A model generated the notes under the pieces. That model saw only the letters and a list, made by a program, of their open reading frames with translations. It had not been told where the DNA came from and made no database searches. The position numbers and the translations under genes were made by a program. Of a DNA stretch of 64,000 nt, positions 35,767 to 46,250 are shown one piece after another. The stretch covers positions 62,001-126,000 of the forward strand of contig NZ_JABFHG010000005.1 in assembly GCF_013112485.1 (NCBI RefSeq), in the 5' to 3' direction. The DNA is from Roseicella sp. DB1501. GTDB taxonomy: Bacteria; Pseudomonadota; Alphaproteobacteria; Acetobacterales; Acetobacteraceae. Position 1 is the stretch's first letter. The number at the start of each line of letters is the position of its first letter.

Positions 35767-36627
35767 ATGCCCGCCTATCATCGACCGACCTGCCTGCGGG
35801 AGGCGCTCGACCTGCTGGCGGCGGCGCCCGCGATGCAGCCGCTCGCGGGCGGCACCGACATCTACCCCGCCCGCGCCGCCGCCGAGGCCTGGCTGCAGCC
35901 GCGGGACCAGCCGCTGCTCGATCTCTCGGCGCTCCCCGACATGGCCGGCATCGCCGAGCACCCCGACCACCACCGCATCGGCGCCGGCACGCGCTGGGCG
36001 GCGATCCGCGATGCCGGATTGCCGCCCTGGTTCGACGGGCTGCGCGGGGCGGCGGCGCGGATCGGCGGCCGGCAGGTGCAGAGCCGGGCGACGCTCGGCG
36101 GCAATCTCTGCAACGCCTCGCCCGCCGCCGATGGCGCGCCGCCCCTGCTGGCCCTGGATGCCGCGCTGGAGCTGGCGCATCGGGAGGGCCGGCGGCGCCT
36201 GCCGCTGCGGGACTTCCTCCTGGGCAACCGCCGGACCGCCCTCGCCCCCGGCGAGATCGTCACGGCGGTGATCGTGCCGAAGCCGCGCCACGCCGCCACG
36301 GCCCGCTTCGACAAGCTCGGCAGCCGCGCCTTCCTGGTGATCTCCCTGGTCTCGGTGGCCGTGACGATCGAGGCCGAGGTCGGCCGCATCGCCCGCGCCC
36401 GCATCGCCATCGGTGCCTGCTCGGCGGTGCCGCAGCGCCTGCCGGGGCTGGAAGCGGCGCTCGCCGGCCAGCCCCTGGCCATGGCCGCCGCGGTGCCGGA
36501 GCCGGCGCATCTGGCCCCCCTCGCTCCGATCGACGATGTCCGGGCAAGCGCCGACTATCGCCGCCATGCCGCGCTGGTGCTGCTGCGGCGCGCCCTCGCC
36601 CCGCCGATGGCGAGCGCGGCGACATGA
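35767..36627 (+). CDS. Molybdenum hydroxylase FAD-binding subunit (CoxM/NdhF-like)
   Basis: A 286-residue medium subunit of the xanthine dehydrogenase family. The FAD motifs are PLAGGTDIYP (residues 27-36) and TLGGNLCNASPAAD (about 113-126), and a CO_deh_flav_C domain follows. It passes electrons from the FeS clusters to the acceptor. GGAGGGG precedes ATG 35767. It overlaps the next gene by ATGA. The gene starts 76 nt after the iron permease, so it could share the iron-regulated transcript, fitting the iron demand of the FeS enzymes that follow. Confidence 0.88.
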   Translation: MPAYHRPTCLREALDLLAAAPAMQPLAGGTDIYPARAAAEAWLQPRDQPLLDLSALPDMAGIAEHPDHHRIGAGTRWAAIRDAGLPPWFDGLRGAAARIGGRQVQSRATLGGNLCNASPAADGAPPLLALDAALELAHREGRRRLPLRDFLLGNRRTALAPGEIVTAVIVPKPRHAATARFDKLGSRAFLVISLVSVAVTIEAEVGRIARARIAIGACSAVPQRLPGLEAALAGQPLAMAAAVPEPAHLAPLAPIDDVRASADYRRHAALVLLRRALAPPMASAAT

Positions 36628-39326
36628 CCAGCCCGGCCCTGCTGCTGCTGGTCAATGGCGAGACCCGCCGCGTCCTGGCGCCCGGCCAGACCCGGCTCAG
36701 CACCATCCTGCGCGACGAGCTCGGCCTGACCGGGACCAAGATTGGCTGCGATGCCGGAGATTGCGGCGCCTGCACGGTGCGAATCGATGGCGCCCAGGCC
36801 TGCGCCTGCCTCGTGCCGGTGGCGCAGGCGGCGGGCCATGCCGTCGCCACGGTCGAGGGGCTGGCCGCGTCGCCCATGGGCGACGCGCTGCAACGTGCCT
36901 TCCTGCATCACGGCGCGGCGCAATGCGGCATCTGCACGCCCGGGATGCTGATGGCGGCGAGCGAGCTGCTCGCGGGCGAGGCCCGGCCGGACGAGGCGGC
37001 GGTGGCGGCGGCGCTCGGCGGCGTGCTCTGCCGCTGCACCGGCTACCGCAAGATCGTCGAGGCGGTCCGCGACGCGCATCGCTTCCTCGCCGGCGGGCCG
37101 GCACCGGTCGCGCCCGCGGCCGGCTGCGCCGTGGGCGAACGCCTGGCGCGCGCCGACGGCCTCGCCAAGGTCGGCGGCACGGACCGCTTCGGCGCCGATG
37201 CGGCGCCCGACGGCGCCCTCTGGCTGCGGGCGGTGCGCAGCCCCCATCCCCGCGCCCGCTTCGCCTTCGGCGACTGGGCGCCGCTGCTGGCGCGCCATCC
37301 CGGCCTGGTGCGGGTGCTGACCGCCGCCGACGTGCCGGGCCGCAACGGCTTCGGCATCTATCCCGACATCAAGGACCAGCCGGTCTTCGCCCCGGGCGAG
37401 GTGCGCTATCGCGGCGACTGCCTCTGCGCCCTGGTCGGCGACCGCGCCGCGCTGGAGGCGATTCGGACCGAGGAGCTGCCCATCGCCTGGACGCCGCTCG
37501 CCCCGGTCACGCTTGACGACGCACTCGGCGGCGAGCCGGTGCAGGCGCGCTGGCCCGACAACGTGCTGACCACCGGCCGCGTGGTCTCAGGCGATGCCGA
37601 GGCGGCGCTGCGGGCGAGCCGGCACAGCGCCGCGATCGAGATCGAGACCGGCTTCGTCGAGCATGCCTATATCGAGCCCGAGGCGGGCTGGGCGCAGCGG
37701 GTGGGCGACCGGATCGAGGTCTTCGCCTGCACCCAGGCCCCCTATATGGATCTGGAGGAAGTGGCCGGCGTGCTCGGCCTGCCACAGGCGGCGGTGCGCA
37801 TCATCCCCTCGGCCTGCGGCGGCGGCTTCGGCGGCAAGCTCGACGTCTCCATCCAGCCCATGCTCGCCATCGCCGCCTGGCTGCTGCGCCGTCCGGTGCG
37901 GGCCGTGCTGCCGCGCGGCGAGAGCATGGCGAGCAGCACCAAGCGGCATCCGGCGCGCATCGCGGCGCGGGCGGGCTGCGACGCCGCCGGGCGCCTCACC
38001 GGCTTCGCCTTCGAGGGGCGCTACGAGACCGGCGCCTATGCGAGCTGGGGCCCGACCGTCGCCGGCCGGGTGCCGGTGCATGCCATGGGCCCCTACCGCG
38101 TGCCGGCGGTCGCCGCCCGGGCGCGCGCCATCTTCACCAACAACCCGCCGGCCGGCGCCTTCCGCGGCTTCGGCGTGCCGCAGGCGGCCATCGCCCAGGA
38201 GGCGCTCTGGGACCGGCTGGCCGATGCGGCGGGACTCGACCGGCTGGAATTCCGCGCTTTGAACGCGCTGCGGGCGGGCGACGTGACGGCGACCGGGCAG
38301 CGGCTCGCGCATTCCGTCGGGCTGATGGCGTGCCTCGACGCGCTGCGGCCGCGCTGGCGTGCGCTGCGCGCCACGGCGGCGGCGGCCAACGCCCTGGCCG
38401 ATGCGGGGGGCGGCCGGCAGCGCCACGGCGTCGGCATCGGCTGCATGTGGTACGGCATCGGCAATACCGGCATGTCGAACCCCTCGACCATGCGCATCAC
38501 CCTCGGGCCGGAGGGGCTCGTCTTCCACAACGGCGCCGTCGATATCGGCCAGGGCAGCACCACGGCGCTGCTGCAGATCGCCGCCGACGCGCTGGGCCTG
38601 CCCACGGATGCCTTCCGCCTCGTGCTCGGCGATACCGACCTCACCGAGGATGCCGGCAAGACCAGCGCCTCCCGCCAGACCTTCGTCAGCGGCCGTGCCG
38701 CCGCCGAGGCCGGCCGAGCGCTGCGCGAGGCCATCCTGCTGCGGGCCAATGCCGGGCCGGAGGCGCGACTGGCCTTGCGGGACGGCGCACTGCTGGTCGA
38801 TGGGCGGCCCGTCGGGCTGGAGTCCACGCTCGAGGGCATCGGCCGCTTCGACCCGCCGACCCGGCCGCTCGATGCCGATGGTCAGGGCATTCCCTATGCG
38901 ACCTATGGCTTCGCGGCGCAGCTCGCCGCCCTCTCGGTGGATCTCGATCTCGGCACCGTGCATCTGCAACGCATCGTCGCGGCGCATGATGTCGGCCGGG
39001 CGATCAACCCGACCCTGGTCGAGGGGCAGATCCATGGCGGCATCGCCCAGGGCATCGGCCTCGCCCTGATGGAGGAATACCTGCCCGGCCACACCGAGAA
39101 CCTGCACGACTACCTGATCCCGACCATCGGCGACGTGCCGGAGATCGAGTGCCTGCTGATCGAGGCGCCGGAGCCGCTCGGCCCCTATGGCGCCAAGGGC
39201 ATCGGCGAGCCGGCGCTGGTGGCGACCGCGCCGGCGATCCTCTCGGCGATCCGCGACGCGACGGGGGCGACCCTGACCCGCATCCCCGCCCTGCCCCACC
39301 GTATCCTGGAGGCGCTCCGCCGATGA
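36624..39326 (+). CDS. Molybdenum hydroxylase, fused 2Fe-2S and molybdopterin subunits
   Basis: A 900-residue fusion. Residues 1-155 hold two [2Fe-2S] domains (C42, C47, C50, C62; then C101, C104, C136, C138). From about 165 follows the large molybdopterin subunit with CGGGFGGK, AFRGFGVPQ, a GQGSTT block and GPYGAKGIGEP, whose Glu is the catalytic base of the family. It hydroxylates an N-heterocycle or aldehyde using water. Within this cluster a nicotinate-like substrate is plausible. No Cys/Se-Cys peculiarity is visible. ATGA overlaps join it to the genes on both sides. It lacks a Tat signal, so it is cytoplasmic. Confidence 0.88.
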   Translation: MTSPALLLLVNGETRRVLAPGQTRLSTILRDELGLTGTKIGCDAGDCGACTVRIDGAQACACLVPVAQAAGHAVATVEGLAASPMGDALQRAFLHHGAAQCGICTPGMLMAASELLAGEARPDEAAVAAALGGVLCRCTGYRKIVEAVRDAHRFLAGGPAPVAPAAGCAVGERLARADGLAKVGGTDRFGADAAPDGALWLRAVRSPHPRARFAFGDWAPLLARHPGLVRVLTAADVPGRNGFGIYPDIKDQPVFAPGEVRYRGDCLCALVGDRAALEAIRTEELPIAWTPLAPVTLDDALGGEPVQARWPDNVLTTGRVVSGDAEAALRASRHSAAIEIETGFVEHAYIEPEAGWAQRVGDRIEVFACTQAPYMDLEEVAGVLGLPQAAVRIIPSACGGGFGGKLDVSIQPMLAIAAWLLRRPVRAVLPRGESMASSTKRHPARIAARAGCDAAGRLTGFAFEGRYETGAYASWGPTVAGRVPVHAMGPYRVPAVAARARAIFTNNPPAGAFRGFGVPQAAIAQEALWDRLADAAGLDRLEFRALNALRAGDVTATGQRLAHSVGLMACLDALRPRWRALRATAAAANALADAGGGRQRHGVGIGCMWYGIGNTGMSNPSTMRITLGPEGLVFHNGAVDIGQGSTTALLQIAADALGLPTDAFRLVLGDTDLTEDAGKTSASRQTFVSGRAAAEAGRALREAILLRANAGPEARLALRDGALLVDGRPVGLESTLEGIGRFDPPTRPLDADGQGIPYATYGFAAQLAALSVDLDLGTVHLQRIVAAHDVGRAINPTLVEGQIHGGIAQGIGLALMEEYLPGHTENLHDYLIPTIGDVPEIECLLIEAPEPLGPYGAKGIGEPALVATAPAILSAIRDATGATLTRIPALPHRILEALRR

Positions 39327-40822
39327 GCCAGGACCGCACCGCCCTGTTCGGCGCGCGCGAGGGCAATGAGGGCATCGTCCGCTGCGATGCCTGCCCGGTG
39401 CTCTGCCGCATCCGCCCCGGCCGGGCCGGCGCCTGCAGCCGCTACGCCAACCGGGATGGCGCGCTGGTCCGCACCGACCCGCTGGTGCTGATGACCCGGA
39501 CCCGCGAGGCGGGCGGCGAGACCGTGCCCTTCCTCGACGCCGCCGAGGACTGGGATGGCGGCATCGCGCCGGCGCCCGGGACCTTTGTCAGCTCGACCTT
39601 CGTCACCGCCATCGGCGCCGGCACCACCTATCCGGATTACAAGCCGGCGCCCTTCATCGTCGCCTCGGCGCATGCGGGCGTCGACACCGTCACCGTGGTG
39701 ACCGAGGGAATCTTCAGCTATTGCGGGTTGAAGGTGAAGATCGACACCGACCGGCATCTCGGCCCGGAGACGGCGGCGGTGCGGGTCGATGGCGAGCCGA
39801 TCGGCCATGTCACCACGGCCGAATATGGCAGCCAGATGCTCAGCCTCGGCGGCGTCCGCCACCTGACCGGCGGCAGCAAGAAGGAGGGCACCGTCACCTG
39901 CGCCGCCATGCTCGCCCTCTGCGGCAAGCAGCCGGTCGAGGTCAGCATCGATGGCGGCGCCCGGCTGGTGCTGCAGGCGGGCCAGGCGCCGATCGTGAAC
40001 GGCGTGCCGGAGCGGCGCATGCGCGTCGGCTGCGGCAGCGCCGCCATCGGCATCTTCGCCCAGCAATGGCACGGCCATGTCGATGAGGTGATCGTGGTGG
40101 ACGACCACATCACCGGCCTGCTGTCCGAGCACCAGGCCGGCAAATGCCTCGGCATCCCGCCGAGCGGCATCCGCCTGCGCGGCCGCCGCTCGACGCCGGG
40201 CCGCTACTTCCAGGTGGCGCATCCCGGCACCGGCTGGGGCGGCACCGACATCACTGACCCGCTCGCCGTCATCGAGCGGATCGACCCGAAACAGGCCTGG
40301 CCCGGGCTGCGGCTGCTGCTGACCAGCACCACCGGCGAGGATCATCTCTATGTCGAGCTCGACGAGACGCTGCGACCGGTGCCGGCGCGGACGCCGCCCG
40401 CGGTGCTGCAGACGGTCGAGCGCATCGGCGAGAATTGCGAGCAGGCCCTCACCTCCATCCTCTTCATGGCCGGCGCCGGCGGCAGCCTGCGCGCCGGGGT
40501 GACGGAGAATCCGGTGCGGCTGACGCGCGAGGTGCAGAACAGCCTGGTACGGGTGACGATCGGCGGCGCACCCTGCACGCTCTGGCCCGGCGGCGGCATC
40601 ACCATCATGGCGGACGTCCTGCGGGTGCCGGACGGCGCCTTCGGCGCGGTTCCGACGCCCGCCCTGGTGGCGCCGATCGAGTTCACCCTGCGCGCCGATC
40701 TCTATGCCCGGCTCGGCGGCCATGTTGGGCATGCGATCCCGCTGGAGCGGCTGCTCGCCGAGCATGGCGAGGCGGCGCGGCACGAGGCCTGGATGGCGCG
40801 GAACCCATGGCCGGCGCCGTGA
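39323..40822 (+). CDS. hnr: 6-hydroxynicotinate reductase-like iron-sulfur flavoprotein
   Basis: A 499-residue protein with an N-terminal four-cysteine cluster motif (C21, C24, C28, C38; CDACPVLCRIRPGRAGAC) and further cysteines (SYCGLK, TCAAMLALC, RVGCGS). Length and the SSTFVTAIGAGTTYPDYKPAP and GGSKKEGTVTCAAMLAL blocks resemble 6-hydroxynicotinate reductase, which in the anaerobe Eubacterium barkeri carries a covalent flavin plus FeS clusters and reduces the hydroxylated ring. The call rests on recalled family features, not on an alignment. It overlaps the Mo enzyme by 4 nt and UPF0280 by 16 nt. A low-potential electron donor is needed; none is encoded here. Confidence 0.75.
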   Translation: MSQDRTALFGAREGNEGIVRCDACPVLCRIRPGRAGACSRYANRDGALVRTDPLVLMTRTREAGGETVPFLDAAEDWDGGIAPAPGTFVSSTFVTAIGAGTTYPDYKPAPFIVASAHAGVDTVTVVTEGIFSYCGLKVKIDTDRHLGPETAAVRVDGEPIGHVTTAEYGSQMLSLGGVRHLTGGSKKEGTVTCAAMLALCGKQPVEVSIDGGARLVLQAGQAPIVNGVPERRMRVGCGSAAIGIFAQQWHGHVDEVIVVDDHITGLLSEHQAGKCLGIPPSGIRLRGRRSTPGRYFQVAHPGTGWGGTDITDPLAVIERIDPKQAWPGLRLLLTSTTGEDHLYVELDETLRPVPARTPPAVLQTVERIGENCEQALTSILFMAGAGGSLRAGVTENPVRLTREVQNSLVRVTIGGAPCTLWPGGGITIMADVLRVPDGAFGAVPTPALVAPIEFTLRADLYARLGGHVGHAIPLERLLAEHGEAARHEAWMARNPWPAP

Positions 40823-41661
40823 TCGCCGCGCTGCCGGACGGGCGGCTGCACCTGCAGGAGGGGCCGATCGACCTGGTGATCGGGCTCGACGGCACGCGCG
40901 CCGCCATGGCGGAGGCGGCGCGCCGGGCCGCGGCGACCTTCGAGGGACTGCTCGCCGGGCTGGCCGCGGAGCTGCCGCTGCTGCGCCAGCCGGTCGGGGT
41001 CGATCCGCCGCCGCTGCGGGGCCCGGTGGCGCAGCGCATGGCGGCGGCGGTCTGGCCCTTCCGCCGCGGCTTCGTCACGCCCATGGCCGCGGTCGCCGGC
41101 GCCGTGGCGGACGAGGTGTGCGAGGCCATCGCCGGCACGCCCGGCCTGCTCAGCGCGCATGTCAACAATGGCGGCGACATCGCGCTCTTCCTCGCGCCCG
41201 GCCAGGCGCTCCGGGTCGGCCTGGTACGCAGCCTGCGGGAGACGGCGCCGGAGGGGCTGGTGCGGCTGACCGCCGCCGATCCGGTGCGCGGCGTCGCCAC
41301 CTCCGGCTGGCCGGGCCGCAGCTTCTCCCTCGGCATCGCCGATGCCGTCACCGTGCTGGCCGCGACCGCGGCGGCGGCCGATGCGGCGGCCACGATCATC
41401 GGCAATGCGGTCGATGCCGAGCATCCGGCGATCCGGCGGGCGCCGGCGGAGTCGCTCGATCCGGACAGCGATCTCGGCGGGCGTCTCGTCACCACGGATG
41501 TCGGGCCGCTGCCGGCGACGGCGATCGCCGCGGCGCTCGATGCCGGCGAGGCGGTGGCGGAGGGGCTGCTGCAACGCGGCCTGATCCAGGCGGCCCTGCT
41601 CTCGCTGCAGGAGGGGCTGCGGGTGGTTGGCGATCCGGCGCTGCTGCCGGGCTGCGGCTAA
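40807..41661 (+). CDS. UPF0280 family protein (ApbE superfamily), candidate flavin transferase
   Basis: A 284-residue protein of UPF0280, a family placed in the ApbE superfamily. The conserved blocks FVTPMAAVAGAVADEV (about 89-104), VNNGGDIAL (119-127), GVATSGWPGRSFSLGIADAV (162-181) and ADAAAT (191-196) parallel the FAD- and metal-binding motifs of ApbE, which attaches FMN to Ser/Thr of target proteins. No signal peptide is present, so it acts in the cytoplasm. The start inside the reductase gene (16-nt overlap) implies coupled translation. Role inferred: maturation of the reductase's covalent flavin. Its TAA overlaps the stop of the convergent livF. Confidence 0.85.
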   Translation: MAGAVIAALPDGRLHLQEGPIDLVIGLDGTRAAMAEAARRAAATFEGLLAGLAAELPLLRQPVGVDPPPLRGPVAQRMAAAVWPFRRGFVTPMAAVAGAVADEVCEAIAGTPGLLSAHVNNGGDIALFLAPGQALRVGLVRSLRETAPEGLVRLTAADPVRGVATSGWPGRSFSLGIADAVTVLAATAAAADAAATIIGNAVDAEHPAIRRAPAESLDPDSDLGGRLVTTDVGPLPATAIAAALDAGEAVAEGLLQRGLIQAALLSLQEGLRVVGDPALLPGCG

Positions 41662-42359
41662 ACCGAGAGATACTGCTCCCGCACCGCCGCATCCTGCATC
41701 AGCGCCGCCATGCCGCCCTCCCAGCGGATGCGGCCCTTCTCGATGATGGTCGCGCGGTCGCCGACGGCGCGGGCGAAATGCAGGTTCTGCTCGGAGAGCA
41801 GGATCGACAGCCCCTCGGCCTTGAGAGCCAGGATCGCCTCGGCCATGCGCTCCACCACCACCGGGGCCAGCCCCTCGCTCGGCTCGTCGAGCAGGACCAG
41901 GCGCGGATTTCCCATCAGGGTGCGGGCGATGGTCAGCATCTGCTGCTCGCCGCCGCTCATGCGGCCGCCCGGTCGGCCGCGCATGGCGCCGAGGCTCGGG
42001 AAGAGCGCGAAGAGCCGCTCCGGCGTCCAGGCCCGCAGGCCGGGCGGCGCCGGGCGGCGGCCGACCTCGAGATTCTCCATCACCGTCAGCTCGGAGAAGA
42101 TGCGCCGCTCCTCCGGCACGTAGCCGAGGCCGAGCCGGGCGATCTCGAAGGGCGCGCGGCCGGCGATCTCCTGCCCGCGGAAGCGCACCCGCCCGGCGCA
42201 CGGCGGCACCAGCCCCATGATCGCCTTCATGGTGGTGCTCTTGCCCGCGCCGTTGCGGCCGAGCAGCACCACTACTTCGCCGGCGCCGACCGTGAGGCCG
42301 ACATCCTCCAGGATCCGGGCGCGCCCGTACTGCGCCGCGAGGCCGGAGACCTGCAGCAT
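41658..42359 (-). CDS. livF: Second-cluster LivF-type ABC ATPase
   Basis: A 233-residue cytoplasmic ATPase: Walker A GRNGAGKS, signature RMSGGEQQML, Walker B LVLLDEPSEGL. The ATG at 42359 (start MLQVSGLAAQYG) shares one base with the livG stop; a TTG one codon upstream is an alternative. It terminates at 41658, with its TAG overlapping the UPF0280 TAA on the other strand, and no terminator lies between them. Confidence 0.92.
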   Translation of the reverse strand: MLQVSGLAAQYGRARILEDVGLTVGAGEVVVLLGRNGAGKSTTMKAIMGLVPPCAGRVRFRGQEIAGRAPFEIARLGLGYVPEERRIFSELTVMENLEVGRRPAPPGLRAWTPERLFALFPSLGAMRGRPGGRMSGGEQQMLTIARTLMGNPRLVLLDEPSEGLAPVVVERMAEAILALKAEGLSILLSEQNLHFARAVGDRATIIEKGRIRWEGGMAALMQDAAVREQYLSV

Positions 42360-43117
42360 CAATGCCCGCCCTGCGTCGCGCCGGAGCCGAGATAGACCTC
42401 GCGCACGCGCGGATCGGCCCGCACCGCGGCCGGCGGCCCCTCGGCGATCGGCGCGCCGCGGTCGAGCACCAGGATGCGGTCGGCATGCACGAAGACGACA
42501 TCCATGTCGTGCTCGGTGAAGAGCACGGCGATCCGCCGCTCGCGGGCGATGCCGGCGGTCAGCGCCATCAGCGCGACGCGTTCCTGCGGCGCCATGCCGG
42601 CGGTCGGCTCGTCCATCAGCAGCAGGGCGGGATCGTTGGCCAGGGCGATGGCGAGTTCCACCCGCTTCAGGTCGCCATAGGCGAGGATGCCGCAGGGCCG
42701 CCCAGCCTGCGCCGCGATGCCGAGCCGCTCGAGCAGCGCCAGGGCCGGCGCCCGGTCCATGGCGGCGACCGGCCGCCAGAGCTGACCGAGCCGGCGGTGA
42801 TGCGACAGCAGCGCCATCTGCACGTTCTCGAGCACCGTCATCGAGCCGAAGGTGGCGGTGACCTGGAAAGTGCGGCCGACGCCGAGGCGCCAGACCTTGC
42901 GCGGCGTCAGGCCGGTGATGTCCTGCCCGCGCAGACGGACGCGGCCGGCATCGGGGCGGAGCTGGCCGTTCAGCATGTTGAAGCAGGTGGACTTGCCGGC
43001 CCCGTTGGGCCCGATCAGCGCCAGCATCTCGCCTGGCGCGACGGCGAAGGAGACGTCCCGCACCGCCTGGACGCCGCCGAAGCTCTTGCGCAGCCCCTCG
43101 GCCTCAAGCGTCGCCAT
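42359..43117 (-). CDS. livG: Second-cluster LivG-type ABC ATPase
   Basis: A 252-residue cytoplasmic ATPase with Walker A GPNGAGKS, the LivG insert GVGRTFQVTATFGSMTVLENV, and Walker B LLLMDEPTAGM. The start at 43117 lies 14 nt inside the end of the livHM gene (43104), so the genes are translationally coupled. The signature motif reads LAYGDLKRVE, a common LivG variant of LSYG. Confidence 0.92.
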   Translation of the reverse strand: MATLEAEGLRKSFGGVQAVRDVSFAVAPGEMLALIGPNGAGKSTCFNMLNGQLRPDAGRVRLRGQDITGLTPRKVWRLGVGRTFQVTATFGSMTVLENVQMALLSHHRRLGQLWRPVAAMDRAPALALLERLGIAAQAGRPCGILAYGDLKRVELAIALANDPALLLMDEPTAGMAPQERVALMALTAGIARERRIAVLFTEHDMDVVFVHADRILVLDRGAPIAEGPPAAVRADPRVREVYLGSGATQGGH

Positions 43118-44948
43118 GCCGCCCCTCCCAGCGCGCCCGGGCGGCGCCCGCCAGCCCCTGCGGGAAGAACAGCACCAGCAGGACGATGGTGGTGCCGAGG
43201 AGCAGCCGCCAGACATCGGTCAGGCGCATGAGCTGCTCCTGCAGCCCGGTATAGGCGATGGCGCCGAGGATCGGCCCGCTGAGCGTCTGCACGCCACCGA
43301 GCAGCACCATGAGCAGCGCATCGACGCTGCGCGAGATGCCGAGGAAGGTCGGGAACACGCTGCCCTTGGCATAGGCGAAGAGGCCGCCGGCGAGCCCGGC
43401 CATGGTGGCGGCGAGGGCGAAGGCCCGCCAGCGTATGGCGAAGGCGTCGATGCCGATCGTCTCCGCCCTGAGGGCGCTGTCGCGCTGCGCCCGCACCGCA
43501 TAGCCGAAGGGCGCGCGGATCACCCGCCGCAGGAACAGCGTGGCCAGCAGGCAGAGGGCGAGGGTCAGGTAGTAGTAGACCAGCCGCGGCGCCGCCCAGC
43601 GATCCGGCCAGACGCCGAGGATGCCGTTGTCGCCGCCCGTCAGCTCGACCCATTGGAAGGCCACGGACCAGGCGATCTGGGCGAAGGCGAGCGTCAGCAT
43701 GGCGGCATAGACGCCGGAGAGCCGGACGCAGAACCAGCCGAAGAGCAGGCCGCCGAGCCCCGCCGCGACGGGCGCCAAAGCGAGGCCGATCGCCATCGGC
43801 GCCAGCAGCCATTTGGCGGCGAGCGCCGCGCCATAGGCGCCGAGGCCGAAATAGGCGGCATGGCCGAAGCTCGCCATGCCGCCCGGCCCCATGATGAGGT
43901 GCAGGCTGGCGGCGAAGAGCACCAGGATGGCGATCTCGGTCAGCACCGAGAGGGCGTAGTCCCCGGCGAAGGGCGGCAGCGCGATGGCGGCGAGCAGCGC
44001 CGCGAGGCCGAGCCATATCAGGGGCCGCGGCGTCGGGCCGATGACCGGTTCGGCCGCCTGTCCGGCCGCGGCCGGCGCCTGCGGCCGGCCGAGCAGCCCG
44101 TGCGGCCGCAGGATGAGCACCACGGCCATCACCAGGAAGACCAGCACCAGGGTGATCTTCGGCAGGATGAGGATGCCGAGGGCGTGCAGCTCGCCGATCA
44201 GCAGGGCGGCGAGCGCCGCGCCCGTCAGGCTGCCCAGCCCGCCCACCACCACCACGACGAAGGCCTCGGCGATGATGGTGAGGTCCATGCCGAGATTGAC
44301 GCTCTCCCGAGGCAGTTGCAGCGCGCCGCCGAGCCCGGCGAGGCAGGAGCCGAGGAAGAAGACGGTGGTGAAGAGCATGCGCTGGTTGACGCCGAGCGCG
44401 CCGACCATCTCGCGGTCCTGCGTCGCGGCCCGCACCAGCGTGCCCCAGCGGGTGCGGTGAAACAGCAGGTGCAGCAGGAAGAGGACCACCGGCCCCACCG
44501 CGATCAGGAACAGCTCGTAATCCGGGAAGCGCAGGCCGAGGATCATCGTGCCGCCGCGCAGCCCTGGCGCCCGCGGCCCGAGCAGGTCCTGCGGCCCCCA
44601 GAGGAGCAGCGCGAGGTCCTGGACGATGAGCACGACGCCGAAGGTCGCCAGCAACTGGAACAGCTCCGGCGCCCGGTAGATGCGGCGGAGCAGCAGCATC
44701 TCGACCGCGGCGCCCATCAGCCCGACGCAGAGCGCCGCCGCCAGGATGCCGCCCCAGAAGCCGAGATGGCCGCGCGGCAGGCTGGTGACGAGGCTCCAGG
44801 CGAGATAGGCGCCGAGCATGTAGAAGGAGCCATGCGCGAAGTTGACGATGCGGCTGACGCCGAAGATGACCGTCAGCCCGCTCGCCACCAGGAAGAGCGA
44901 CGAGGCGCTGGCCAGGCCGCTGAGCGCCTGGAGGGCCAGGGTCTCCAA
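43104..44948 (-). CDS. Fused LivH-LivM ABC permease
   Basis: A 614-residue inner-membrane protein joining LivH (about 1-290, with NFAHGSFYMLGAYLAW and VVVVGGLGSLTGA) and LivM (about 325-600, with ASFGHAAYFGLGAYG and LLMVLLGGVQTLSGP) through a Pro/Ala linker (PQAPAAAGQAAEPV). This would supply both channel subunits in one chain. I chose the TTG at 44948, 10 nt after the receptor stop, because it gives a normal LivH N-terminus (ETLALQALSGL); the next ATG upstream (45023) would overlap the receptor and add a basic tail. Confidence 0.88.
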   Translation of the reverse strand: METLALQALSGLASASSLFLVASGLTVIFGVSRIVNFAHGSFYMLGAYLAWSLVTSLPRGHLGFWGGILAAALCVGLMGAAVEMLLLRRIYRAPELFQLLATFGVVLIVQDLALLLWGPQDLLGPRAPGLRGGTMILGLRFPDYELFLIAVGPVVLFLLHLLFHRTRWGTLVRAATQDREMVGALGVNQRMLFTTVFFLGSCLAGLGGALQLPRESVNLGMDLTIIAEAFVVVVVGGLGSLTGAALAALLIGELHALGILILPKITLVLVFLVMAVVLILRPHGLLGRPQAPAAAGQAAEPVIGPTPRPLIWLGLAALLAAIALPPFAGDYALSVLTEIAILVLFAASLHLIMGPGGMASFGHAAYFGLGAYGAALAAKWLLAPMAIGLALAPVAAGLGGLLFGWFCVRLSGVYAAMLTLAFAQIAWSVAFQWVELTGGDNGILGVWPDRWAAPRLVYYYLTLALCLLATLFLRRVIRAPFGYAVRAQRDSALRAETIGIDAFAIRWRAFALAATMAGLAGGLFAYAKGSVFPTFLGISRSVDALLMVLLGGVQTLSGPILGAIAYTGLQEQLMRLTDVWRLLLGTTIVLLVLFFPQGLAGAARARWEGRHGDA

Positions 44949-44958
44949 GGCGCCGGGA

Positions 44959-46173
44959 TCAGCTCTGCGGCCGGAGCGTGCGGACCGTCTCGTCCGGCGG
45001 CAGGAAGTCCTTGCCGTCGGCATAGTGCCAGTCGGCCATGGTGCCCCTGCCGTTCTTCAGCACGGTGCGGCCGACGAAGGCGCCCATGGTCGATTGGTGG
45101 TCGATGGCCCGGAACTCCACCGGCCCGAAGACGGAGCCGAAGCGCAGGCCGGCCATGGCATCCACCATTGCCTCGGATTCCACCGCTGGCGCCTTGCGCA
45201 GCATGGCGGCGATCGCCATGACCGTGTCGTGCCCGACGACGCTGCCGAGGCGCGGATGGTCGTTCCAGCGCTTCCGGTAGGCGTCGCGGAAGGCGGCATG
45301 CTCCGGCGTGTTCACCTGGTCCCAGGGATAGCCGGTGACGATCCAGTTCTCCGGCGCCTCGTCCTGCAGCGGGTCGAGATACTCCGGTTCGCCGGTCAGC
45401 AGCGAAACGACGCGCCGCCCCTCGAACAGCCCGCGGGTCAGGCCCTGGCGGACGAAATTGGTGAGATCGGCGCCGAAGGTGACGTTGAAGATCGCCTCCG
45501 GATTCGCCGCGGCGAGCGCCTGCACGGTCGCGCCGGCATCGATGCGGCCGAGCGCCGGGAACTGCTCGGCGACGAAGGCGACCTCCGGCCGGGCGCGCGT
45601 CAGCAGCTCCTTGAACCAGCGCACCGCCGACTGGCCGTATTCGTAATTCGGCGCGACGCAAGCCCAGCGCTTCGCCGGCAGCTTCGCCGCCTGCTCCACC
45701 AGCATGGCGGACTGCATGTAGGTGCTGGCGCGCAGCCGGAAGGTGTAGCGGTTGCCCCGCGACCAGACGAGCGCATCCGTCAGCGGCTCGGAGGCCAGGT
45801 AGAGCATGCGGTTTTGGTTGGCATAGTCCGAGATGGCGAGGCCGACATTCGACAGGAAGCCGCCGGCGAGCAGCGCGACCTTCTCGGCATTCGCCAGCTC
45901 GCCCGCCAGGCGCACCGCATCCTCCGGCTTGCCGCCATCGTCGCGATGCACCGTCTCCAGCCGTCGGCCGTTGATGCCGCCGGCGGCGTTCACCTGCTCC
46001 AGCGCCAGGGTCCAGCCGTTGCGGTAGGGCAGCAGGAAGGCCGGCTGCGCGGTGTAGCTGTTGATCTCGCCGATCCGGATCGGGCCGGCCTGGGCCCGGC
46101 CGAGCGCCGGCGCCCCCAATGCCATGCCGGCACCTGCCAGGATCTGGCGGCGCCCGAACCACCGAACCGTCAT
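44959..46173 (-). CDS. Liv-type ABC solute-binding protein, second cluster
   Basis: A 404-residue periplasmic receptor of the Peripla_BP_6 fold. The signal includes RRQILAGAGMALGAPALG (Tat-like), and the mature start PIRIGEINSYTAQPAFLLPY is different from the array of four at 22-27 kb. Typical blocks: LAGGFLSNVGLAISDYANQ and VVGHDTVMAIAAMLR. ATG 46173 has GGGGGCG upstream; the frame continues to 46221 without a signal peptide. It heads the operon receptor-livHM-livG-livF next to the nicotinate-type genes, so its ligand may be an N-heterocycle or a carboxylate (inference). Confidence 0.9.
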   Translation of the reverse strand: MTVRWFGRRQILAGAGMALGAPALGRAQAGPIRIGEINSYTAQPAFLLPYRNGWTLALEQVNAAGGINGRRLETVHRDDGGKPEDAVRLAGELANAEKVALLAGGFLSNVGLAISDYANQNRMLYLASEPLTDALVWSRGNRYTFRLRASTYMQSAMLVEQAAKLPAKRWACVAPNYEYGQSAVRWFKELLTRARPEVAFVAEQFPALGRIDAGATVQALAAANPEAIFNVTFGADLTNFVRQGLTRGLFEGRRVVSLLTGEPEYLDPLQDEAPENWIVTGYPWDQVNTPEHAAFRDAYRKRWNDHPRLGSVVGHDTVMAIAAMLRKAPAVESEAMVDAMAGLRFGSVFGPVEFRAIDHQSTMGAFVGRTVLKNGRGTMADWHYADGKDFLPPDETVRTLRPQS

Positions 46174-46198
46174 ATCGCCCCCGGTCGCGTCACATGCT

Positions 46199-46250
46199 GC
46201 GATGCGGGCATGCAACCGCAACGCCCCCGGCGGCGCAAGACCCTGGGGGC
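46199..46250 (-). other. Two hairpins between peroxiredoxin and receptor genes
   Basis: GCGG/CCGC with GCG/CGC flanks (46199-46224), then GCCCCC/GGGGGC (46223-46250) just after the peroxiredoxin stop on the minus strand. The second is the likely peroxiredoxin terminator. Confidence 0.4.

Follow-up and report, generated by a model that had tools for sequence, protein, structure and literature searches.

A UPF0280 protein with a predicted ApbE fold as the likely dedicated maturation enzyme of 6-hydroxynicotinate reductase-like proteins

The window analyzed here is a stretch of 64,000 nucleotides (nt) from Roseicella sp. DB1501 (contig NZ_JABFHG010000005.1, positions 62,001 to 126,000), whose genome assembly is 5.99 Mb in 47 contigs and 98% complete. 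It carries two overlapping genes, which code for a 6-hydroxynicotinate reductase-like protein (HNR) and a UPF0280 protein. An earlier reading of the sequence, referred to below as the original prediction, proposed that the latter is a dedicated cytoplasmic flavin transferase for the former. The two genes are arranged as follows.

39323..40822, + strand: HNR, 499 amino acids (aa); ATG at 39323, stop TGA at 40820-40822
40807..41661, + strand: UPF0280 / COG2122 protein, 284 aa, predicted ApbE fold, proposed HNR-maturation enzyme; ATG at 40807, stop at 41659-41661
40807..40822, + strand: HNR/UPF0280 gene overlap, 16 nt, from the open reading frame coordinates

The second protein was identified by NF003322 (362.3 bits; cut-off, 290). 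This family, UPF0280, which we take to be equivalent to COG2122, also has below-cut-off matches in Methanosarcina acetivorans and Methanocaldococcus jannaschii. For HNR, neither Pfam nor NCBIfam gave a match at E 0.001, and sequence searches of the PDB gave no convincing relative. Several of its plasmid relatives are annotated as 6-hydroxynicotinate reductase. Its closest named relative, among the 80 best of at least 594 loci, is that of Paracraurococcus ruber (90% identity in the best segment). The HNR of SG-6C is 42% identical to that of Eubacterium barkeri (excerpt of PMC3511419).

HNR and UPF0280 occur together or not at all in our genome samples. With a strong match defined, for both genes, as a best E of 1.1e-39 or better per genome, strong matches to the two coincided in 44 of the 289 class-sample genomes and in 32 of the 398 phylum-sample genomes, and neither sample contained a strong match to HNR alone or UPF0280 alone. 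Four genomes are common to both samples, leaving 72 distinct genomes with both genes. Fisher's test on the class-sample co-occurrence gave 4e-53, a value uncorrected for kinship between genomes. Matches set aside as weak (E 4.6e-7 to 6.7e-4) were HNR in G029 and G078 and UPF0280 in G099, G109, G121 and G143 of the class sample, and two of each gene in the phylum sample (G346 and G349; G558 and G630). The UPF0280 genes of G064 and G087, split by contig ends and below the family cut-off, were counted among the 44.

Gene order is equally constant. UPF0280 lay downstream of HNR in 30 of 30 class-scan loci examined (two cut by contig ends). A further scan used two HNR patterns, one of which was TTYPDYKP; in all of its 80 best loci, out of at least 594, UPF0280 was downstream on the same strand, at a distance between match ends of at most 400 nt in 67, 468-636 nt in 12 and 1517 nt in one. 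Viewed from UPF0280, HNR was upstream in 55 of 56 loci, and the remaining one (L129) starts at a contig end. Among plasmid records, HNR was found in 26 and UPF0280 in 27, namely the same 26 and Hydrogenophaga sp. BPS33. The latter has four UPF0280 places, two of them beside IS1071 in the examined stretch, and a short frame just upstream of UPF0280 resembles the HNR C-terminus (PIEFSMTMADYLDFGGHS; tblastn E 0.48); we read it as what is left of an HNR C-terminus, next to a transposase. On this plasmid (pBPS33-1, locus L141), repeated units adjoin IS1071 transposases in the order apparent HNR remnant, UPF0280, uracil-DNA-glycosylase-family gene, MarR, Rieske oxygenase and PDR/VanB reductase.

The pair outlives its neighboring genes. 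Of 46 loci flanked by 8 kb in either direction, UPF0280 was present in 46, the flavin adenine dinucleotide (FAD) subunit of a hydroxylase in 42, its molybdenum (Mo) subunit in 41, livF in 30, livG in 28, livK in 20 and an amidohydrolase gene in 15. The Mo-hydroxylase as the true target of UPF0280 is disfavored, because five of these 46 well-flanked loci keep the pair with no Mo subunit nearby. We consider it nearly certain that the role of UPF0280 is specific to HNR; comparative genomics confined to a single phylum could hardly make this dedicated role firmer.

The 16-nt overlap noted in the original prediction is present in the window, but the stoichiometric production derived from it is unsupported, because overlap length varies among pairs: with script-chosen starts, the spacing in 136 unique pairs was -4 nt in 55, an overlap of some length in 75 and more than 400 nt in 16. 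The overlap suggests coupled translation, not fixed stoichiometry. By eye, a MarR-like frame lies in the gap in all six 468-636 nt loci that were read (L044, L046, L055, L056, L057 and L065), and a long opposite-strand frame lies between the two genes in a seventh long-gap locus (L078).

A PDB search by sequence returned DVU1097 (PDB 2o34) as the sole solved UPF0280 relative (E 6.3e-7 with a single sequence and 1.1e-11 with a profile), the other five profile matches having E 0.14 or worse. The AlphaFold model of UPF0280 was of high quality (predicted local distance difference test, pLDDT, 95.9; predicted template modeling score, pTM, 0.93). In VIA comparisons it matched 2o34 with Z 20.2 (211 residues, 3.3 A, 27% identity) and the ApbE/Ftp/FmnB entries with Z 14.0-16.4 (201-218 residues, 3.2-3.6 A), the next fold being that of uricases at Z 7.9. 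Foldseek gave E 2.4e-10 to 2o34 and 2.6e-5 to FmnB, with modest TM-scores to ApbEs (0.33-0.49), and a profile comparison against ten ApbEs of relatives gave a probability of 94 and E 1.3e-7 (for a single pair) over residues 98-198. As modeled, UPF0280 has the two-domain ApbE fold, and its placement in the ApbE superfamily by the original prediction holds at fold level.

We aligned 163 UPF0280 relatives (138 distinct sequences). Mean column identity was 43-44%, and conservation was centered on N-x-GGD, ATSG, GRS-x-S and ADAAAT. The three ApbE-like blocks named in the original prediction (N-x-GGD, VATSG and ADAAAT) were found at N120-N-G-G-D124, V163-A-T-S-G167 and A191-D-A-A-A-T196, and their cores are near-invariant in the 163 relatives. 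The corresponding codons are listed below.

41077..41100, + strand: UPF0280 T91-P-M-A-A-V-A-G98, counterpart of the ApbE LSGIAKGY region, lacking the metal-site-2 Glu/Lys
41164..41178, + strand: UPF0280 N120-N-G-G-D124, from the relatives' alignment and the profile comparison
41296..41334, + strand: UPF0280 A164-T-S166-G...G-R171-S172-F-S174-L-G176, with the ApbE triad Ser and an Arg at Ser+5, lacking the ApbE His hairpin
41377..41394, + strand: UPF0280 A191-D192-A-A-A-T196, counterpart of the E. coli Ftp metal-site-1 ligands D280 and T284

In E. coli Ftp, metal site 1 is built with the D280 and T284 side chains (excerpt of PMC4767422), which are matched by UPF0280 D192 (163/163) and T196 (Thr in 158 and Ser in 5 of 163). 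The catalytic triad of V. cholerae ApbE is Ser241-His257-Asp285 (excerpt of PMC12052999); S166 in the aligned ATSG block (163/163) matches Ser241, and Asp192 matches the triad Asp. R171 (Arg in 160, His in 2 and Asn in 1 of 163) is located at Ser+5 and would superpose on FmnB Arg262, which lies five residues past Ser257 (excerpt of PMC12052999). Part of the ApbE catalytic machinery, namely one metal site, the Ser and the Arg, is retained in UPF0280. No lipobox was found in the 163 proteins, RRx[FLV] occurred near the start in 15 of them, and hydrophobicity thresholds failed to separate ten ApbE controls; UPF0280 is likely cytoplasmic.

The partner protein was characterized through an alignment of 161 HNRs, in which the following codons stood out.

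39614..39628, + strand: HNR G98-A-G-T101-T102, the candidate acceptor of the original prediction, from the alignment of 161 HNRs
39623..39661, + strand: HNR TTYPDYKPAPFIV, residues 101-113, the longest HNR run conserved at 97%

The original prediction located GAGTT at residues 98-102, which is correct, and stated that the window HNR lacks a canonical acceptor, which also holds: [ST]GA[ST], the short form of the ApbE target motif D-x-x-[ST]-G-A-[ST], is absent from it and occurs in 5 of the 161 relatives at scattered positions. T101 is Thr in 159/161 and T102 in 160/161, and the two residues open the longest well-conserved run of HNR, which at 98% in 86 dereplicated sequences is TTYPDYKPAPFI (residues 101-112). 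Residues 99-102 read AGTT in 79, SGTT in 50 and ATTT in 23 of the 161; SGTT recalls SGAT with T102 at the acceptor place, a resemblance and not a test. In the AlphaFold model of HNR (pLDDT 83.7), residues 75-106, 70-72 and the termini score below 50, and the run that T101/T102 open borders the unplaced stretch 75-106. This stretch would fit a loop that is ordered by a bound or attached cofactor, other reasons being possible.

Eight Cys are conserved in HNR, of which C21, C24, C28 and C38 are present in 146-157 of 161 sequences (the rest being gaps) and C134, C193, C237 and C372 in 158-161. They suffice for two four-Cys clusters, and the pattern fits iron-sulfur (Fe-S) clusters. Foldseek and VIA found nothing convincing for the HNR fold. 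The best VIA score (Z = 4.0) was to the GcvT C-terminal barrel at residues 135-221, and Pfam GCV_T_C matched below its cut-off (E 0.0031) at residues 134-170; the two hints agree on one stretch, but both are weak. The lack of a convincing match gives no evidence for a new fold. Separately, a C-x2-CP-x2-C-x9-C stretch at HNR residues 18-52 (window 39374-39478) resembles the N-terminus of proteins with CDLCPRFCKIRDGQRGLCFVRAN (L195 and L196), as a shared Cys mini-domain; the latter proteins are presumably radical-SAM-like.

UPF0280 is most likely a dedicated cytosolic maturation enzyme of HNR, probably a flavin mononucleotide (FMN) transferase. In the mechanism that we envisage, UPF0280 would be a pared-down ApbE-type transferase. 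D192/T196 would bind FAD and Mg2+, S166 and R171 would help to split the FAD pyrophosphate, and FMN would end up in phosphoester linkage to a Thr of freshly synthesized HNR. As acceptor, T101 or T102 in the conserved G-x-x-T-T-Y-P-D-Y-K-P-A-P-F loop would be the best candidate. The action on HNR, the reaction and the acceptor residue are deduced with unequal strength. Flavin transfer is the likeliest reaction, given that this fold otherwise belongs to FMN transferases that use FAD, that one metal site, the Ser and the Arg have been retained, and that the related E. barkeri 6-hydroxynicotinate reductase reportedly contains a covalent flavin. We nevertheless give it an even chance, because the His and the second-metal Glu are missing, the flavin site has been doubted in print and relatives have a homocysteine role. 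T101/T102 is plausible as the acceptor but not the sole candidate, and on balance doubtful.

Several observations weigh against flavin transfer to T101/T102 by UPF0280. The pairing shows partnership, not chemistry, and the class sample includes four UPF0280 matches, weak and divergent, from genomes that lack HNR. PF02424 (ApbE) was not reported for UPF0280, and indeed the window protein had no Pfam match with the limit at E 10, where the search filters drop most matches above 0.1. UPF0280 has no counterpart of the general-base His257 of ApbE, because the hairpin bearing it is missing in the profile alignment, and none of its His is invariant in the 163 relatives; the H257G change in V. cholerae ApbE lowered but did not abolish activity, by the account of a review (excerpt of PMC12052999). 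The ligand of metal 2 (Glu169 in Ec, Lys165 in Tp) is also absent: judged by motif, its position would be that of A97, which is Ala in 138 of 138 distinct sequences. Price et al. (2018; excerpt of PMC5764234) considered that the homology of COG2122 seems not to reach the flavin-binding region of ApbE. For COG2122 of Desulfovibrio and Methanosarcina, the excerpts describe a role in homocysteine synthesis or the use of sulfide and mention no flavin (PMC5764234, PMC12068725). On the side of the reductase, no flavin-binding fold was recognized by the Foldseek and VIA searches, and the ApbE target motif is missing, as noted above. The covalent flavin is reportedly that of the E. barkeri enzyme, and in these proteobacterial HNRs it is a presumed feature. 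Finally, 17 to 20 other Ser/Thr positions of HNR, including S388 in GAGGSLR and T427 in PGGGIT, show a degree of conservation similar to that of T101/T102, and 79 of the 161 HNRs came from the scan with TTYPDYKP as one of two patterns, so that the sample favors that motif. Removing these 79 left 70 distinct sequences, in which 101-113 remained the longest run at the 97% level. At 98% it no longer was, owing to a protein with Ser101 and to a frameshift artifact in row L170. T101 was Thr in 68/69 and T102 in 69/69 of those with a letter.

The original prediction is partly supported. In its favor are the exclusiveness of the pair in our samples, the ApbE fold with part of the active site, the half of the tested hosts without ApbE described below, and an acceptor that opens the longest conserved run. 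Against it stand the absent residues and the published flavin-site doubt, and the acceptor shares its conservation with other positions. It did not mention the role of COG2122 in homocysteine synthesis (excerpt of PMC5764234).

PF02424 was present in 81 of 289 class genomes and absent from 22 of the 44 HNR genomes, some of whose assemblies are incomplete; the 22 include the genome of the window, which had no match at E 0.001. Therefore, as far as these assemblies show, ordinary ApbE is not the general flavin attacher in those 22 hosts. COG2122 is needed for homocysteine synthesis in Desulfovibrio, with MA1715 of Methanosarcina cited in the same context (excerpt of PMC5764234), and MA1715 has been termed a sulfur trafficking protein (excerpt of PMC12068725). 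A homocysteine role for HNR-linked UPF0280 is disfavored: HcyBio/DUF39 (PF01837) was absent at E 0.001 from 44 of 44 HNR genomes, while the control genomes of M. jannaschii and M. acetivorans matched. A literature search that missed most subscription papers found no link of COG2122 to HNR, nothing on the flavin of the reductase among the papers listed, and no literature under the name UPF0280.

Among known systems, UPF0280 shares with ApbE/Ftp/FmnB (PF02424) the two-T-fold architecture, the GGD/E block, the Ser of TSG, the following Arg and the metal-site-1 Asp and Thr; however, it is shorter and lacks a PF02424 match, the His257 hairpin, the second-metal Glu and a lipobox, and its partner lacks D-x-x-[ST]-G-A-[ST]. 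In Klebsiella pneumoniae, a cytoplasmic ApbE likewise serves one soluble reductase, fumarate reductase (excerpt of PMC12052999), but that enzyme is an ApbE acting on the canonical motif, whereas UPF0280 represents a different branch with a different reductase. DVU1097 (2o34; UPF0280 / DUF375) has the same family and fold as the window protein, but by sequence it has SSA in place of TSG and His in place of Arg171, and a Desulfovibrio COG2122 protein acts in homocysteine synthesis. MA1715 and DvMF_0044, the homocysteine-linked COG2122 proteins, presumably belong to the same orthologous group, but their partners are DUF39/HcyBio and NIL-ferredoxin. The clostridial 6-hydroxynicotinate reductase of E. 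barkeri is a probable homologue of HNR, as judged by the annotation of relatives and the 42% identity reported for the SG-6C protein.

Three other roles for UPF0280 were considered. It could be a non-catalytic subunit or folding chaperone of HNR that has kept the ApbE fold, perhaps presenting FAD/FMN, with any covalent bond forming autocatalytically (e.g., 8-alpha to His, Cys or Tyr). A subunit would account just as well for the exclusive pairing and for genes that are close and often overlap, and the absence of His257 and the second-metal Glu also speaks for this role; however, conservation sits on the ApbE-catalytic blocks against a mean column identity of 43-44%, an enzyme-like pattern, and another gene intervenes between HNR and UPF0280 in several loci. 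We regard this role as unlikely. Alternatively, UPF0280 may be a sulfur or Fe-S maturation factor for Cys-rich HNR, as proposed for MA1715 in sulfide assimilation. The eight well-conserved Cys of HNR would suit such a factor, but HNR-type UPF0280 has no conserved Cys of its own among 163 relatives (the best column is Cys in 63), HcyBio is missing from all 44 HNR genomes tested, and the ApbE ATSG and Arg are kept where 2o34 has SSA and His, which makes this role quite improbable. The lack of a conserved Cys likewise disfavors UPF0280 as a persulfide carrier.

UPF0280 could also carry out other phosphoryl chemistry on FAD or ATP for HNR, either splitting FAD and handing over FMN non-covalently or adenylylating HNR. 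The Ftp of Treponema, which shares this fold, hydrolyzes FAD as a pyrophosphatase, an activity also seen in the E. coli enzyme when it carries Y60N (excerpt of PMC4767422); UPF0280 retains metal site 1 and the Ser, and the target motif is absent. A pyrophosphatase, however, need not depend on one target, whereas the pairing with HNR is exclusive in our samples, and we consider this chemistry very unlikely.

A wider proposal is that UPF0280/COG2122 is a second cytosolic flavin transferase family that does not use D-x-x-[ST]-G-A-[ST] and whose branches are each dedicated to a single reductase: HNR in the present case and, in anaerobes, one that takes part in homocysteine synthesis. This proposal is tentative and well short of an even chance. 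To our knowledge, known enzymatic flavin attachment via a phosphoester depends on ApbE and its short target motif. If real, a second branch that follows a different target rule would define a new class of covalent flavoproteins and assign a role to a family that is widespread but biochemically uncharacterized; it would also explain the source of the covalent flavin in the E. barkeri-type reductase and imply that the reductive step of the DUF39/NIL-ferredoxin pathway involves a flavin that has gone unnoticed. Two questions, the origin of the HNR flavin and the role of COG2122 in homocysteine synthesis of methanogens and sulfate reducers, would thereby become directly testable with two small proteins.

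The pair in the window is flanked by the following genes.

35767..36627, + strand: hydroxylase FAD subunit, with FAD_binding_5 and CO_deh_flav_C matches
36624..39326, + strand: Mo-hydroxylase with fused 2Fe-2S and molybdopterin subunits, nicotinate dehydrogenase-like, upstream of HNR
41658..46221, - strand: Liv-type ABC transporter genes, convergent to HNR/UPF0280, by family matches

The 3' end of the Mo-hydroxylase gene overlaps the HNR start by 4 nt, and the convergent transporter possibly takes up the substrate. On a plasmid of Neorhizobium sp. NCHU2750 (L143), the pair lies beside hyuA/hyuB and a Liv transporter, with no annotated Mo-hydroxylase within 8 kb in plasmid gene tables that are incomplete; in this context the pair may serve other N-heterocycles. 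In genome G028 (one contig; L194:3282-4753), HNR is in two overlapping pieces in different frames beside an intact UPF0280 gene, which represents a pseudogene or a sequencing error, and two further class HNRs (G080 and G187) have an internal stop. Divergent UPF0280-like proteins with degenerate GGD/ATSG/ADAAAT blocks are encoded at L191:5982-7453 and L192:2225-3607 (NF003322 E 2.3e-7 and 5e-5), in two genomes of the class that have no strong match to HNR. In both loci the gene is followed by one for a UbiE-like S-adenosylmethionine-dependent methyltransferase; the L191 enzyme has the DVU_1556 family as its best NCBIfam match, below the cut-off, and the L192 enzyme is labeled by its likeness to that of L191. 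These UPF0280-like proteins are possibly a third branch with another partner.

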